Shown: positions 3,260 to 9,483 of the stretch, in pieces
How positions within the stretch are numbered: the first letter of the stretch is position 1
Layout of the letters: each line of letters starts with the position of its first letter
Assembly: GCA_028283825.1 (NCBI GenBank)
Contig: JAPWJW010000003.1
Location: 124,001-188,000 of the forward strand
Reading direction: 5' to 3'
Length of the DNA stretch: 64,000 bases
Source: Azospirillaceae bacterium
GTDB lineage: Bacteria > Pseudomonadota > Alphaproteobacteria > Azospirillales > Azospirillaceae
The notes under the pieces: generated by a model
The model's database searches: none
What the model was told of the DNA's origin: nothing
Seen by the model: the letters and a program-made list of their open reading frames with translations, nothing else
Translations under genes and position numbers: made by a program

Positions 3260-5065
<1,806 letters not shown>

Positions 5066-5067
5066 TA

Positions 5068-5193
5068 CCAGCGGCACGAGTGACTCGTGCCGCTGTAGGA
5101 CGCGACGGCGTCCGCCGGAAGTTTCCGGGGAACGCAGTGGACCGGAAACTGAGGAAGCCAAGGGCGCGGATGCGCCTGCCCGGCGCTTGAGGG
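5068..5193 (+). repeat. Dispersed structured intergenic repeat, copy R2
   Basis: A full-length forward copy. Hairpin 1 is CAGCGGCACGAG-TGA-CTCGTGCCGCTG (5069-5095). It is followed by GGACGC-GAC-GGCGTCC, then AGTTTCCGG pairing with CCGGAAACT, then GGCGC-GGAT-GCGCC, and the terminus GCGCTTGAGGGG. It fills the gap between the convergent ABC exporter and bdcR-like genes. Confidence 0.85.
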
Positions 5194-5206
5194 GTATAGT
5201 AGGGGT

Positions 5207-5809
5207 TCAGCCCAGCAGCGTGCCCAGCCCTGCCGTCGTGACCCGCGCCACGGCGACCAGCCGCTCCACATTCCAGCCTTCGCGCGCGCCGGCTGACAGG
5301 CCGGACATGGTGGTCACCACCATGTCGGTGGCCGTGTCGGCGGTCTCAGGGTGCGTCCGGCCGATGAAGGCGCGGATGGCGGCCCGCTTGCGCCCGGCCG
5401 TCTGCCGCGCCAGCGCCAGGCTTTCCGCGTCGCCGGTGCCGCGCACCGCCTCCAGCACCAGGCAGCCGGGCCGGGCGGGATCGGCCGCGTAGGTCCGCGC
5501 CGCCTGGTCCAGCAGGGTCGCCAGGGCCTCTATCGGCGGCCGGCCGGGCTGGAGGATCTCATCCAGCGGCAGGGTGGCGGCCGCGTACCGCTCCAGCACC
5601 CGACCGAAGAAGGCCGCCTTGCTGCCGAACGCCGCGTAGAAGCTGGGCGGCTTGATGCCCAGCGCCTGGGTCAATGCCGCCAGGCCCACCCCCTCATAAC
5701 CATGGGCATGGAACAGCGCCTGTCCGATGGCCAGCGCGCCCTCCGGATCAAAGGTGCGGGGACGGCCCCGGCCCTGGGGCGCGTCGGCGGATAATAAATT
5801 AGCGCTCAC
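5207..5809 (-). CDS. TetR-family transcriptional regulator, BdcR-like
   Basis: A 200-residue protein with an N-terminal TetR helix-turn-helix (GRGRPRTFDPEGALAIGQAL ... LAALTQALGIKPPSFYAAFG, residues 14-60) and a C-terminal ligand domain. The phrases PPSFYAAFGSKAAFFGRVL and MVVTTMSGLSAGAREG closely follow E. coli BdcR, and the gene is divergent from a BdcA-like gene as in E. coli. It probably represses itself and the operon at 5884-8813. The start is a GTG with AAGGA about nine bases before it, and this start lies inside one of two similar operator-like sequences. The inducer is unknown. Confidence 0.85.
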   Translation of the reverse strand: MSANLLSADAPQGRGRPRTFDPEGALAIGQALFHAHGYEGVGLAALTQALGIKPPSFYAAFGSKAAFFGRVLERYAAATLPLDEILQPGRPPIEALATLLDQAARTYAADPARPGCLVLEAVRGTGDAESLALARQTAGRKRAAIRAFIGRTHPETADTATDMVVTTMSGLSAGAREGWNVERLVAVARVTTAGLGTLLG

Positions 5810-5863
5810 TATAAAAATCCTTGCGGCCCGTCGTCTTGGCGATTTATATAGCGATCACTCAAT
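5798..5863. promoter_or_regulatory. Probable operators between bdcR-like and bdcA-like genes
   Basis: Two related sequences occur in the divergent promoter: AGTGAGCGCTAAT and AGTGATCGCTATA, both read on the minus strand, at about 5810-5798 and 5860-5848. They share AGTGA-N-CGCTA. One overlaps the regulator's start codon and the other lies about 25 bases before the SDR start, a layout that would let one TetR protein control both directions. Binding is inferred from position and repetition only. Confidence 0.55.
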
Positions 5864-5883
5864 AAGTCGCAAGGGTGATGGAT

Positions 5884-6597
5884 ATGAGGGTTTTCCAGGG
5901 CAAGAAGGTCATGGTCATCGGCGGCAGCCGGGGGATCGGCGCCGCCATCGTGGCCCGGTTCGCGGGGGAGGGGGCCGACGTGCTGTTCACCTATGCCGGC
6001 TCGACGGATGCCGCCGGGACGGTGGCGGCTGAAACCGGCGCCACGGCCCTGTGCGTCGATGCCGCCGACCGGGCCGCCATGCAGGGGGCCATCGCCGCCG
6101 CCGGCCCCATCGACATCTTCGTCTTCAACGCTGGCCTGTTTGTCGCGGGCGATCCATTGGAACTGGATGCGGACGCGGTCGATCGCATGATCGACGTCAA
6201 CGTGCGTGCGGCCTATCACGCCGCCGTGGCGGCGGCCCGCACCATGCCCCAGGGCGGCCGTATCCTGTTCGTCGGCTCCGTCAACGGCGACCGCGTGCCG
6301 TTCGCGGGCCTCGCCGCCTACGCCATGACCAAGTCGGCGCTCCAGGGCCTGGCGCGTGGTCTGGCCCGTGATTTCGGGCCCCTGGGCATCACCGTGAACG
6401 TGATCCAGCCGGGCCCCACCGACACCGACATGAACCCGGCCGATGGGCCGCTGGCCGGCCAGATGCACGGCGTCATGGCCATCAAGCGCCATGGCACGGC
6501 CGGGGAGGTCGCGGGCCTGGCCGCCTTCCTGGCGGGGGCCGACGCCGGCGGCATCACCGGCGCCCTGCACACCATCGATGGCGGCTTCGGCGCCTGA
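5884..6597 (+). CDS. bdcA: Short-chain dehydrogenase, BdcA-like
   Basis: A 237-residue SDR with the NAD(P) motif GGSRGIGAAIV, the structural NAG, a catalytic serine in FVGSVNGDRVP and the YAMTKSALQGLARGLARDFG active-site helix (Y-x-x-x-K). Long stretches, including SVNGDR, KSALQG, QPGPTDTDMNP and HTIDGGFGA, match E. coli BdcA, a protein reported to bind cyclic di-GMP and favour biofilm dispersal. Whether it is an enzyme on a small molecule here is open. The ATG at 5884 is preferred because CAAGGG lies eight bases upstream; GTG at 5875 and ATG at 5878 are alternatives. It heads a four-gene operon. Confidence 0.85.
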   Translation: MRVFQGKKVMVIGGSRGIGAAIVARFAGEGADVLFTYAGSTDAAGTVAAETGATALCVDAADRAAMQGAIAAAGPIDIFVFNAGLFVAGDPLELDADAVDRMIDVNVRAAYHAAVAAARTMPQGGRILFVGSVNGDRVPFAGLAAYAMTKSALQGLARGLARDFGPLGITVNVIQPGPTDTDMNPADGPLAGQMHGVMAIKRHGTAGEVAGLAAFLAGADAGGITGALHTIDGGFGA

Positions 6598-6613
6598 ATA
6601 AGGGAGTTCCCAA

Positions 6614-6931
6614 ATGAGCGATGACGAAAGCGGCGTGGTCATCTACGTCACCTACACCGGCACGCCGGACGCGCGGTTCGACCGCGCCTATTATGTCGAC
6701 CACCACCTGCCGCTGGTGTTGCGGGCGTGGGCGCAATACGGCCTGACCAGCGTGGCCGCCTTCTATCCGGCGGTGGATGCGGCGGGTACCCTCGCCATCT
6801 GCGAATGCCGTTTCCGGGACGCGGCGGCGGTGGCCGCCGCCTTCGCCTCACCGGAGGTGCCCGAGGTGATGGCGGATGTGGCCCGTTTCACCGACCTGAC
6901 GCCCAGCCGCGTGCGGGCGGTGGCGTTATGA
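6614..6931 (+). CDS. EthD-domain protein
   Basis: A 105-residue ferredoxin-like-fold protein with the EthD pattern: VVIYVTYTGTPDARFDRAYYVDHHLPLV (here cut as VVIYVTY and FDRAYYVDHHLPLV) and a C-terminal DVARFTDLTPSRV. The EthD family includes small dimeric proteins associated with ether or aromatic degradation and polyketide cyclisation; the role here is unknown. AGGGAG stands about eight bases before the ATG. It lies 16 bases after the SDR and its stop overlaps the next start (ATGA), so the four genes are probably co-translated. Confidence 0.8.
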   Translation: MSDDESGVVIYVTYTGTPDARFDRAYYVDHHLPLVLRAWAQYGLTSVAAFYPAVDAAGTLAICECRFRDAAAVAAAFASPEVPEVMADVARFTDLTPSRVRAVAL

Positions 6932-7956
6932 GCGGGACGACGATGCCGTTCTGGCGCGATGTGGCGCCCCGCACCGTCCGCCGGGGCCATTTCTGGATCG
7001 CCGGCGATCGCGTCCAACTGGACGGGCGCACCTATCAGCGCGGTCCCATGTTCGTGGAGTGGGAGGCACCGGAGCAGGTCACCCAGCCCTGGCCTGTCAT
7101 CCTCATGCATGGCGGCGGCTTCCAGGGCACGGAGTGGTTCGAGACGCCGGACGGGCGGCCCGGCTGGGCCCAGCGCCTGGTGGAGGCCGGCTACGCCGTG
7201 CTGGTGGTCGACCGGCCGGGCCACGGCCGCGCCCCCTTTCATACCGCGACCTTGGGCGCCATGGGCCCGCCCTTCTCCTACGAAGGGGGCCGCCAGATCT
7301 ATTTCCCGGCGGGGGCCGCCGAGGCGCACACGCAATGGCCGTTTGCGCCGGATGACGAGGCCGCGATGGATGAATTCATCGCCGGTTACGGCCCGCTGCC
7401 GGCCGATCTGGAACTGTCGCAGACCCTGGACGCGGACCGCACGGCGGCCCTGCTGGACCGCGTCGGGCCGGCCATCCTGCTGACCCATTCCGCCTCCGGC
7501 CCCGCCGGCTGGTTGATCGCCGACCGGCGCCCGGGCCTGGTCGTCGCCATCGTGGCGGTGGAGCCGATGGGCCCGCCCTTCGCCGACATCCCCAACATCG
7601 GCCCCATGAGCTGGGGGCCGGCGGCGGCCCCCTTGCGGTTCGAACCACCGGTGACGGACCCGGCGCAGGTGCGCGACGTCGCCCCCGGCCAACTGCGCCT
7701 GCCGGCGCTGGCGGGCCTGCCCATCCTGATCGTCACGGCCGGGGCATCGGCCTTCGCCGCGGCCAGCCCGCCGACGGCCGATTTCCTGAACGCCGCCGGT
7801 GCCTCCGCCCAACTGATGCACCTGCCCGATCATGGTGTGCACGGCAACGGCCACGGCCTGATCTATGAGAGGAACTCCGACGCGGCGCTGGCGCCGGTGC
7901 TGGCCTGGCTGGGCCGGCACGCGTCCGACCCGGCGGACAGGGAAGGAGGGGTCTGA
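6928..7956 (+). CDS. Alpha/beta hydrolase
   Basis: A 342-residue protein of the alpha/beta hydrolase fold. The oxyanion region is HGGGFQG, the nucleophile elbow is HSASGPAGW (serine), and a late histidine occurs in HGNGHG. The N-terminus shows no signal peptide, so the enzyme should be cytoplasmic. Its family is often annotated as esterase. The ATG overlaps the previous stop and its own stop TGA overlaps the next ATG, giving a translationally coupled cluster with an EthD-like protein and two dehydrogenases. The substrate is not known; the context suggests uptake or detoxification of a small carbonyl or ester compound. Confidence 0.82.
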   Translation: MSGTTMPFWRDVAPRTVRRGHFWIAGDRVQLDGRTYQRGPMFVEWEAPEQVTQPWPVILMHGGGFQGTEWFETPDGRPGWAQRLVEAGYAVLVVDRPGHGRAPFHTATLGAMGPPFSYEGGRQIYFPAGAAEAHTQWPFAPDDEAAMDEFIAGYGPLPADLELSQTLDADRTAALLDRVGPAILLTHSASGPAGWLIADRRPGLVVAIVAVEPMGPPFADIPNIGPMSWGPAAAPLRFEPPVTDPAQVRDVAPGQLRLPALAGLPILIVTAGASAFAAASPPTADFLNAAGASAQLMHLPDHGVHGNGHGLIYERNSDAALAPVLAWLGRHASDPADREGGV

Positions 7957-8813
7957 TGGATATCGGCTTCATCGGTCTGGGCCGCATGGGGACGGCGATG
8001 GCGCGCAACCTGGCGGCGGCGGGCCATGCCGTCTGCGCCTGGAACCGCAGCCCCGTGGCCCCCGACGCGGTGCCGGGCATGACCATCGCCGCCACCCCGG
8101 CGGCGGCGTTCGACGCGGACATCGTCTTCACCATGCTGTCGGATGATGCGGCCATCCGCGCGGTGGTGCTGGACGGCGGTGCGTTGGGCCAGGCACGCCC
8201 CAGCGTGGTTCACATCGTGTCGGCCACCATCTCCGTGGCCTTCGCCGATGAACTGGCGGCCTGGCATGCCGACCGGGGCATCGCCTACCTCTCCGCCCCC
8301 GTCTTCGGCCGGCCGGAAGTGGCGGCCGCCGCCAAGCTGAACTTCATGGTGGCGGGCGACGCGAACGCCATCGCCAAGGTCCGCCCCGTCCTGGACATCC
8401 TGGGCCAGCGCGTCTTCGTCATGGGCGAAAACCCGGCCCAGGCCAACGCCGCCAAGGTGGCCGGCAACATGATGATCGCCATGGCCATCGAGGCGCTGGC
8501 GGAAGGGGTGGCGATCACCCGCGCGCAGGGGGTGGAACCGGCGGCGTTCATCGACCTGATGACCACCACGCTATTCGGCTGCCGCGCCTATGAGAACTAC
8601 GGCGGCAAGATCCTGGCCGGCGATTACGAGGCTGGGTTCCGCCTGGCCCTGGGCCTGAAAGACCTGCGCCTGGCTACCGCCGCCGGTGAGGCGTCAGGCA
8701 AGGCACTACCGATGCTGGACGCCGTGCGCGCCCAGATGCAAGCGGCGAGCGAGGCCGGCATGGGCGACCGTGACTGGTCGGCGATGGCGGACTTCACGCT
8801 GGGTGCGCGCTGA
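7956..8813 (+). CDS. NAD(P)-dependent oxidoreductase, 3-hydroxyisobutyrate dehydrogenase family
   Basis: A 285-residue beta-hydroxyacid dehydrogenase. The dinucleotide fold starts at once (GFIGLGRMGTAMARNL), the substrate-binding strand reads SAPVFGRPEVAAAAKL around residues 113-128, and the catalytic lysine is probably K167 in AAKVAGNMM. The substitution of FGRPEV for the usual SGG-x-x-GA in the substrate loop points to something other than 3-hydroxyisobutyrate; glyoxylate or semialdehyde reductases and imine reductases have similar relatives. It is the last gene of the operon that starts with the BdcA-like SDR and overlaps the hydrolase by one base. Confidence 0.85.
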   Translation: MDIGFIGLGRMGTAMARNLAAAGHAVCAWNRSPVAPDAVPGMTIAATPAAAFDADIVFTMLSDDAAIRAVVLDGGALGQARPSVVHIVSATISVAFADELAAWHADRGIAYLSAPVFGRPEVAAAAKLNFMVAGDANAIAKVRPVLDILGQRVFVMGENPAQANAAKVAGNMMIAMAIEALAEGVAITRAQGVEPAAFIDLMTTTLFGCRAYENYGGKILAGDYEAGFRLALGLKDLRLATAAGEASGKALPMLDAVRAQMQAASEAGMGDRDWSAMADFTLGAR

Positions 8814-8847
8814 TCCCACTGATCGGGATTGCTGCGGGCTTGACCAA

Positions 8848-8866
8848 ACTACGGCTTAGCCGTAGT
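8848..8866. promoter_or_regulatory. Palindromic operator candidate upstream of brnT
   Basis: ACTACGGCTTAGCCGTAGT is a perfect 9-bp inverted repeat around one T, placed 25 bases before the toxin start. Toxin-antitoxin operons are commonly repressed by the antitoxin at such sites. A weak T-containing stretch follows, so a terminator for the preceding operon is the alternative reading. Confidence 0.55.
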
Positions 8867-8891
8867 CTTGTTCTGTCTTGCAGGGGGCGCC

Positions 8892-9164
8892 ATGTATCAG
8901 TGGGACGAGCAAAAGGCCGCCATCAATTTCGCCAAGCATGGCGTGCGATTTGAGGAGGCCCAGGCCGTCTTCAACGATCCATTCGCGCTTGAATGGACTG
9001 ATGAACGTGAAGACTATGGTGAAGAGCGCTTCATCATCATCGGTATGGCGGAAGGCCGCCTGTTTTGCGTCGTCTATACGCTGCGGAATGACAATATCCG
9101 CATTATCTCCGCCAGAGGAGCCGAGCCCCATGAGCGCCGACGATACCACGGCGAAAACGCCTGA
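8892..9164 (+). CDS. brnT: BrnT family toxin (type II toxin-antitoxin)
   Basis: A 90-residue protein with the BrnT pattern: WDEQKAAINFAKHGVRFEEA at the start, then FNDPFALEW, a central YGEERFIIIGMAEGRL and the C-terminal IRIISARGAEPHERRRY. BrnT is a RelE-fold ribonuclease that stops translation when free. The ATG at 8892 follows a G-rich ribosome site and begins exactly at the family's first conserved residues. The downstream gene overlaps by 35 bases, as usual for these pairs. The antitoxin is not of the classic ribbon-helix-helix BrnA type (see next entry). Confidence 0.88.
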   Translation: MYQWDEQKAAINFAKHGVRFEEAQAVFNDPFALEWTDEREDYGEERFIIIGMAEGRLFCVVYTLRNDNIRIISARGAEPHERRRYHGENA

Positions 9165-9483
9165 CCCCGACGCTGCCCCTTTCGCGCGCTTCGACGCGAT
9201 GTCGGAGGAGGAGCGTCACCAGGCGGCGCTGAGCGACCCGGACGCCCGTCCGTTGACGCCCGAGGACATGTCCCGCATGCGCCGGGTGCCGCAGGTGCGG
9301 ACGATGCGCCGGGCGCTGGGGCTGACGCAGGAGGAGTTCGCCGCGCGCTTCCAGGTGCCCATCGGCACGCTGCGCGACTGGGAGCAGGGCCGGAAGGAAC
9401 CGGATGCCACGGCGAAAGCCTATCTGCGGGTGATCGCCAAGAATCCCGACTTCGTCCAGGAAGCACTCAAGCGGACCGCCTGA
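9130..9483 (+). CDS. Helix-turn-helix antitoxin paired with BrnT
   Basis: A 117-residue protein with an acidic, flexible N-terminal half (residues 1-50, including PFARFDAMSEEERHQAALSD) and a C-terminal XRE-type helix-turn-helix (RRALGLTQEEFAARFQVPIG then TLRDWEQGRKEP). The N-terminal part probably wraps the toxin, and the HTH would bind the palindrome at 8848-8866. The start ATG lies inside brnT, so the two are translationally coupled. XRE antitoxins with BrnT toxins are less common than RHH ones. It ends two bases before the convergent livF stop. Confidence 0.82.
   Translation: MSADDTTAKTPDPDAAPFARFDAMSEEERHQAALSDPDARPLTPEDMSRMRRVPQVRTMRRALGLTQEEFAARFQVPIGTLRDWEQGRKEPDATAKAYLRVIAKNPDFVQEALKRTA

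Follow-up and report, generated by a model that had tools for sequence, protein, structure and literature searches.

What does a gene pair resembling bdcR and bdcA of E. coli do when it is joined to three further genes? The question is raised by a 64,000-nucleotide stretch of contig JAPWJW010000003.1 from an Azospirillaceae bacterium (the window), in which a gene for a BdcR-type TetR regulator is divergent from four close-packed genes (Table 1). These encode a BdcA-type short-chain dehydrogenase/reductase (SDR), an EthD-fold protein, a predicted esterase and a protein of the beta-hydroxyacid dehydrogenase family; we refer to the five genes as the cassette. An initial annotation of this DNA had described the same divergent arrangement. 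All five open reading frames (ORFs) lie where it placed them, and the junctions it named are present: a gap of 16 bases between the SDR stop (6597) and the EthD start (6614), an ATGA (6928-6931) common to the EthD and hydrolase genes, and a TGATG (7954-7958) common to the hydrolase and dehydrogenase genes. The reading that we favor, on balance and from sequence comparisons, is that the cassette is a horizontally spread, repressor-controlled operon that probably disposes of or uses a small ester- or lactone-type compound.

The set is not confined to this strain. A plasmid protein search returned 11 records with hydrolases 72-78% identical to that of the window, from Paraburkholderia, Acetobacter, Gluconobacter, Erwinia, Caballeronia, Klebsiella and Pantoea; 8 neighborhoods were examined (H6, H7 and H8 were left out). 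Scanning a single genome for each species yielded 55 hydrolase loci. The 8 plasmid loci and 45 of the 55 genome loci make up 53 close loci from 25 genera, the remaining 10 forming a distant group, and plasmid loci L026-L028 (41-47% identity) stand outside the 53-locus counts. Cassette genes were assigned by profile searches with distance limits. No thinning by genus was applied, so that Paraburkholderia and Gluconobacter are heavily represented, and loci truncated at contig ends were retained.

Among the 53 close loci, an EthD gene lies immediately upstream of the hydrolase gene in 38 (15 genera) and a dehydrogenase gene adjoins it in 39 (18 genera). A bdcA-type gene is found upstream in 14 (7 genera), and a divergent, cognate BdcR-type TetR gene in 18 (10 genera); in 17 others a divergent LysR gene replaces it. 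All five genes occur together in 12 of the 53 loci, in Paraburkholderia, Acetobacter, Gluconobacter, Salinicola, Asaia and an Acidobacteriaceae strain, the last with an interrupted hydrolase frame. The hydrolase frame seems to be interrupted or partial in L070, L080, L082 and L083, of which L083 is one of the 12 five-gene loci. The EthD gene of L031 falls outside the distance limit and does not enter the counts. Another complete SDR gene (about 276 amino acids) follows the hydrolase gene in six loci (L029, L031, L036, L042, L047 and L051), and fragments of this same SDR gene were seen in L054, L043, L082 and others. The locus counts, the exchange of TetR for LysR and the second SDR together therefore describe a cassette grammar: a regulator (TetR or LysR), an optional BdcA, EthD, esterase, an optional second SDR, and dehydrogenase. 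The neighborhood search that had been suggested for the gene set thus excludes co-occurrence in this strain only. The initial annotation had presented the cassette as the bdcR-bdcA pair with three putative enzymes or small proteins added. The set is real, but its constant core is EthD-esterase-dehydrogenase, and BdcA is an optional add-on.

Two members of this core are also found as a single protein. In three Pseudomonas loci, each with a divergent LysR gene, the dehydrogenase and esterase share one open frame of 637-660 amino acids, which is strong evidence of joint function. For the L064 fusion, Pfam lists the dehydrogenase domains but, at the threshold used, not the hydrolase half, which was detected by the cassette's own profile. 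In the genome that carries the window, only 2 EthD-type and 4 dehydrogenase-type genes were found at the thresholds used, so that adjacency of these genes by chance is unlikely. A SnoaL-like gene follows the fusion gene in L064.

The hydrolase, P0004, clearly belongs to the carboxylesterase family of SulE and esterase 713 and is a predicted esterase. Its score against Pfam Abhydrolase_6 (26.0 bits) is slightly below the cut-off of 26.3, and it matches esterase 713 of Alcaligenes (1qlw) by sequence with an E value of 1.7e-23; SulE was also matched by sequence. Its predicted structure (mean confidence, pLDDT, of 87) aligns with SulE, esterase 713 and 4q34 at Z scores of 30.4-29.3 (30.4 for SulE and 29.9 for esterase 713), the next fold scoring 19.8. 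The available text of PMC10356948 gives the SulE catalytic triad as Ser209, Glu232 and His333. Ser188, Glu212 and His309 of P0004 align with these residues and do not vary across 24 aligned sequences. As in SulE and esterase 713, the serine lies outside any Gly-X-Ser-X-Gly motif, although P0004 is only 28-29% identical to these enzymes over the structural alignment. The dehydrogenase, P0005, carries both NAD_binding_2 (120.5 bits) and NAD_binding_11 (81.1 bits), with conserved Lys167 and Asn171; the two domains together with the lysine place it among the beta-hydroxyacid dehydrogenases.

The EthD protein, P0003, exceeds the cut-offs of both TIGR02118 (45.9 against 30.5 bits) and PF07110 (28.6 against 22), and its predicted structure (pLDDT 90.8) best matches the EthD-like protein 3bf4 (Z 15.1); it thus shares both the sequence model and the fold of the EthD family, represented by structures 3bf4 and 2ftr. 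Weaker fold matches, at Z of about 9.8-11.5, include SnoaB, CTB10, OAC, 4-methylmuconolactone methylisomerase and LsrG, and many alpha+beta-barrel enzymes score alike after 3bf4. In the ethRABCD set for degradation of ethyl tert-butyl ether, genes for a cytochrome P450, a ferredoxin and a ferredoxin reductase stand beside the EthD gene. None of these is found beside P0003, whose neighbors are instead the SDR, esterase and dehydrogenase. A second EthD-like gene, with 42-48% identity, was seen in four loci (L019 8081-8383, L029 9974-10291, L041 8552-8854 and L083 6310-6642), and a rearranged core occurs in Terriglobus (L063 1090-4249), in the order SnoaL, SnoaL, dehydrogenase, esterase, EthD.

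The regulator, P0001, matches TetR_N (35.5 bits, Pfam), shares 43% identity with E. coli BdcR and, as in E. coli, is divergent from a bdcA-type gene. It is 48-62% identical to the cassette-divergent regulators of 5 other plasmid records. Its closest solved relative by sequence is CifR (6nsn, E 2e-21), a weaker match, and it scored 27.9 against a cut-off of 247 for the NCBIfam model of the acrylate regulator AcuR. Two operator-like AGTGA-N-CGCTA sequences had been reported in the gap between the divergent genes, and both are present (minus strand, 5810-5800 and 5859-5849). We replace this one-sided motif with the near-palindrome TAGYGNNCACTA, of which O1 and O2 are copies about 49 bp apart, and O1 lies across the GTG start of the regulator gene. 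The pattern TAGYGNYCACT matches twice in the window, and none of 100 shuffles contained two matches. Across the 7.16 Mb of the genome there are 8 matches, 4 on each strand with one palindromic site counted twice; two of the 8 are O1 and O2, so that five further places match. The reversed pattern, used as a control, has 101. Box pairs were scored as two boxes 46-52 bp apart (20 positions) against 400 shuffles of the gap. The window pair departs from the consensus at 3 of the 20 positions, and no shuffle was as good.

A double box accompanies the cassette in 10 of the 18 loci with a cognate TetR gene: nine were scored with 2 or fewer mismatches, and in Caballeronia two perfect boxes are separated by 45 bp, outside the scored spacing range. 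Both boxes were also found in 10 of 12 bdcA loci selected by hand from the BdcA search matches. The 10 are all those taken from a related genus (g3, probably Azospirillum); they are bdcR-bdcA pairs lacking the cassette, with 2 or fewer mismatches in each box. The other two, from a genome of genus g13, do not have both boxes. A conserved CCTTG in the gap was considered as a -35 element and set aside; by eye it is better read as the ribosome-binding site of the regulator gene (CAAGG on the minus strand).

The SDR, P0002, has a Pfam adh_short_C2 domain and scores 375.9 bits against a cut-off of 343 for NF009383/PRK12742, the NCBIfam model for the BdcA family. It shares 63% identity with E. coli BdcA and matches the BdcA structure 4pcv with an E value of 7.5e-94; its likely start is the ATG at 5884, aligned with Met1 of BdcA. 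By alignment, Ser135, Tyr149, Lys153 and Arg19 correspond to Ser132, Tyr146, Lys150 and Arg16 of BdcA, residues that the available part of PMC4171110 names for catalysis (Ser-Tyr-Lys) and for NADPH (the arginine in the glycine motif). According to the same part of that report, E. coli BdcA binds NADPH, and binding of cyclic di-GMP was detected neither by differential scanning fluorimetry nor by isothermal titration calorimetry. This agrees with a reductase role, and we have set aside a cyclic di-GMP reading of BdcA on the same grounds. The E. coli locus resembles that of the window in its divergent layout and in having its first box across the regulator start, and differs in that neither an EthD, an esterase nor a dehydrogenase gene adjoins it. 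The description of E. coli as having the bdcR-bdcA pair alone is roughly correct, but in E. coli K-12 (L084 1815-3054) yjgH, of the RutC family, lies 130 bases downstream of bdcA on the same strand, and the E. coli bdcA unit may thus exceed a single gene.

The sequences themselves show the gene order and overlaps, the conserved box pair, the family memberships, the recurrence, the catalytic residues and the dehydrogenase-esterase fusion. From these we infer a sequence of repressor, ligand, hydrolysis, reduction and EthD steps. The BdcR-type TetR protein would bind both palindromic boxes, one covering the start of its own gene and the other at the cassette -10, and a ligand related to the substrate would release it. 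The esterase would split an ester or lactone, and the beta-hydroxyacid dehydrogenase, aided by BdcA or elsewhere by another SDR, would reduce a carbonyl product with NAD(P)H; alternatively, an alcohol product may be oxidized at this step. The EthD protein most likely would isomerize, cyclize or protect an unstable enol or lactone intermediate. A small-molecule pathway acting on an ester or carbonyl compound, rather than cyclic di-GMP binding alone, had been suggested for this locus, and the SulE-family hydrolase, the NAD(P)H reductases, the fusion and the recurrence all lend it support.

A precedent for such a ligand is found in the cifR-cif system of Pseudomonas aeruginosa. There a related TetR protein, CifR, is divergent from and controls an operon containing a hydrolase, and certain epoxides make it release DNA, as described in the available text of PMC8244358; by analogy, a reactive small molecule would be a sensible class of ligand here. 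Two binding sites are also indicated for CifR, going by the title of a paper cited there. The partners differ: in the portion of the source available, those of cif are morB and a major facilitator superfamily transporter, whereas the window has a hydrolase of the esterase-713 type with other partners. Cif was not among the 9 PDB sequence matches of P0004 (E 0.001), and the best folds were those of SulE and esterase 713.

Several observations weigh against the ester- or lactone-handling operon or the control proposed for it. P0005 scores far under the cut-off of every NCBIfam enzyme model that it matched, including those for 3-hydroxyisobutyrate dehydrogenase (139.4 against 291.6) and tartronate semialdehyde reductase (149.5 against 340.75). 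The hydrolase gene has no partner inside the distance limits in 6 of the 53 close loci and in all 10 distant loci (one of these, L077, has a nearby dehydrogenase-family gene with a score under the limit). Eight of the 18 TetR loci, every one from Acetobacteraceae, offer at best a pair with 7-8 mismatches in 20 to the consensus, and 9-50 of 400 shuffles were as good. Of the two g13 loci, L100 has one good and one poor box (2 and 4 mismatches) and L108 has neither box nor a TetR gene. The E. coli bdcR-bdcA gap keeps the same layout with a fair first box and a poor second, a weak pair with 5 mismatches in 20 that 2 of 400 shuffles equaled, and the available text of PMC7567609 names NsrR, not BdcR, as the mapped repressor of both E. 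coli promoters. No promoter passed a sigma-70 scan of 4900-9000; inspection by eye suggested a -10-like TATATA (5845-5850) and a weak -35-like TTGCGG (5821-5826), neither of which passed that scan.

An aromatic-ring catabolic module is a rather unlikely alternative. The EthD protein would then act like 4-methylmuconolactone methylisomerase, and the hydrolase would open an enol-lactone or cleave a C-C bond of a ring-cleavage product from a flavin monooxygenase encoded elsewhere. The EthD model does align with the methylisomerase 2ifx (Z 10.5, 93 residues, 2.5 A), but many other enzymes score alike in the same list. A distant relative of the esterase is fused to a flavin adenine dinucleotide (FAD) monooxygenase in Microbacterium (L074 5780-7996), and other distant relatives have aromatic-degradation surroundings, standing beside genes of the FAD monooxygenase, hydroxyquinol dioxygenase, maleylacetate reductase or carboxymuconolactone decarboxylase families. 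These relatives, however, are only 41-53% identical to the window hydrolase and lack EthD, and a flavin monooxygenase was found in just one (L018) of the 7 annotated close plasmid neighborhoods. The Microbacterium fusion and the aromatic neighbors support a catabolic role for the wider esterase family, though not directly for the cassette itself. A second distant esterase gene lies at 683-1714 of the Microbacterium locus.

It is improbable that the cassette processes signals, degrading or modifying a quorum or other signal and so affecting biofilm, as has been proposed for E. coli BdcA. The available text of PMC4171110 reports that BdcA affects biofilm dispersal, its authors suggesting a link to quorum sensing; LsrG is among the EthD fold matches (Z 9.8-9.9); and annotations of the N-acyl homoserine lactonase family stand beside distant hydrolase relatives on two Rhodococcus plasmids. 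Yet the same source describes BdcA as not binding cyclic di-GMP, BdcA is optional in the cassette, and no autoinducer synthase is annotated in the 11 plasmid regions (10 of them annotated; L023 is unannotated). Tailoring of a secondary metabolite, with the EthD protein as a polyketide cyclase or a SnoaB-like oxygenase, we regard as very improbable. SnoaB, OAC and CTB10 are among its fold matches, and the core has SnoaL-like neighbors in single loci of Pseudomonas and Terriglobus, but the annotations of those plasmid regions include no polyketide or peptide synthase and gene maps of 40 loci place the core in differing surroundings. That the genes are chance neighbors with no joint function, as the few hydrolase genes without partners might suggest, is barely credible, being contradicted by the multi-genus recurrence, the shared boxes and the gene fusion.

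The cassette most likely was acquired, judging from the distribution of its relatives. The hydrolase was searched for in 82 genomes of the order, and 10 gave a match at E 0.001, the best outside the genome itself being 29% identical (E 4e-18). Of 6 congeners, one has a weak and partial match and five have none at that threshold; because these congeners have no close relative of the hydrolase and relatives 72-78% identical sit on plasmids of other families, the cassette probably came from elsewhere. A close BdcA is likewise missing from the congeners, whose best matches are 46-49% identical. When 385 genomes sampled from the class were searched, 5 of them, this genome among them, matched the hydrolase at E of 1e-30 or below, and the next best is 45% identical. 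The gene set seems to move between soil and plant bacteria. Base composition gives no foreign mark: the cassette has a GC content of 0.69-0.73, ordinary for the window, with similar values at 4.0-5.5 kb and 13.5-15.5 kb and lower ones (0.64-0.66) in the first 3.5 kb. The Klebsiella cassette DNA had no match in an E. coli collection at megablast sensitivity.

The cassette is thus real, conserved and probably mobile, and its parts are familiar. In a limited literature search we found neither the gene combination nor the BdcR box described, although the box may be described elsewhere, and no paper was found that mentions both bdcA and EthD. The interest of the locus centers on the BdcR/BdcA link and the fusion, both of which are testable. 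BdcA was named for biofilm dispersal, and its proposed cyclic di-GMP binding was not reproduced in the work described in the available text of PMC4171110; the cassette gives it a metabolic context. That a BdcR-like repressor with the same boxes appears to govern an esterase-reductase module may hint at the real role of E. coli bdcA. We suggest, tentatively, that BdcA could be the carbonyl reductase of an ester or lactone detoxification, that the BdcR-box regulon carries either bdcA alone (in E. coli and g3) or the mobile EthD-esterase-dehydrogenase module, and that the substrate of E. coli BdcA is the kind of compound handled by the module, its biofilm effect being secondary. The fusion singles out a protein pair for joint assay and the double box could serve as a reporter in screens for the natural ligand; such a ligand, if found, would make the function of E. 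coli bdcA directly testable.

Table 1. Features of the cassette locus (window coordinates) and the fused genes of Pseudomonas (coordinates of each locus)
Feature	Position	Strand	Basis or remark
BdcR-type TetR repressor gene P0001, 200 amino acids, GTG start (predicted)	5207..5809	minus	TetR_N; BdcR alignment
Operator-like box O1, TAGCGCTCACTA	5800..5811		overlaps regulator start codon (5809-5807)
Operator-like box O2, TAGCGATCACTC	5849..5860		overlaps end of -10-like TATATA
BdcA-type SDR gene P0002	5875..6597	plus	NF009383; BdcA identity; 4pcv match
EthD-fold protein gene P0003, 105 amino acids, dimeric alpha+beta barrel type	6614..6931	plus	TIGR02118; predicted structure
SulE/esterase-713 family gene P0004, 342 amino acids (predicted esterase)	6928..7956	plus	1qlw match; fold; triad
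Beta-hydroxyacid dehydrogenase family gene P0005, 285 amino acids	7956..8813	plus	NAD_binding_2 and NAD_binding_11
Terminator-like hairpin behind P0005	8848..8866	plus	terminator scan
Dehydrogenase-esterase fusion, L064	6104-8017		divergent LysR gene
Dehydrogenase-esterase fusion, L066	6038-8005		divergent LysR gene
Dehydrogenase-esterase fusion, L069	6023-8005		divergent LysR gene

The hairpin behind the last gene is weak on its own, since the scan found 4 terminator-like sites in 4.1 kb where 1.3 were expected. About 80 bases past the cassette, at 8892-9483 of the window, lie a BrnT-type toxin gene (PF04365, 109.9 bits) and then a helix-turn-helix antitoxin-like gene; toxin-antitoxin genes are also found near the cassette in Acetobacter (L020) and Gluconobacter (L022).

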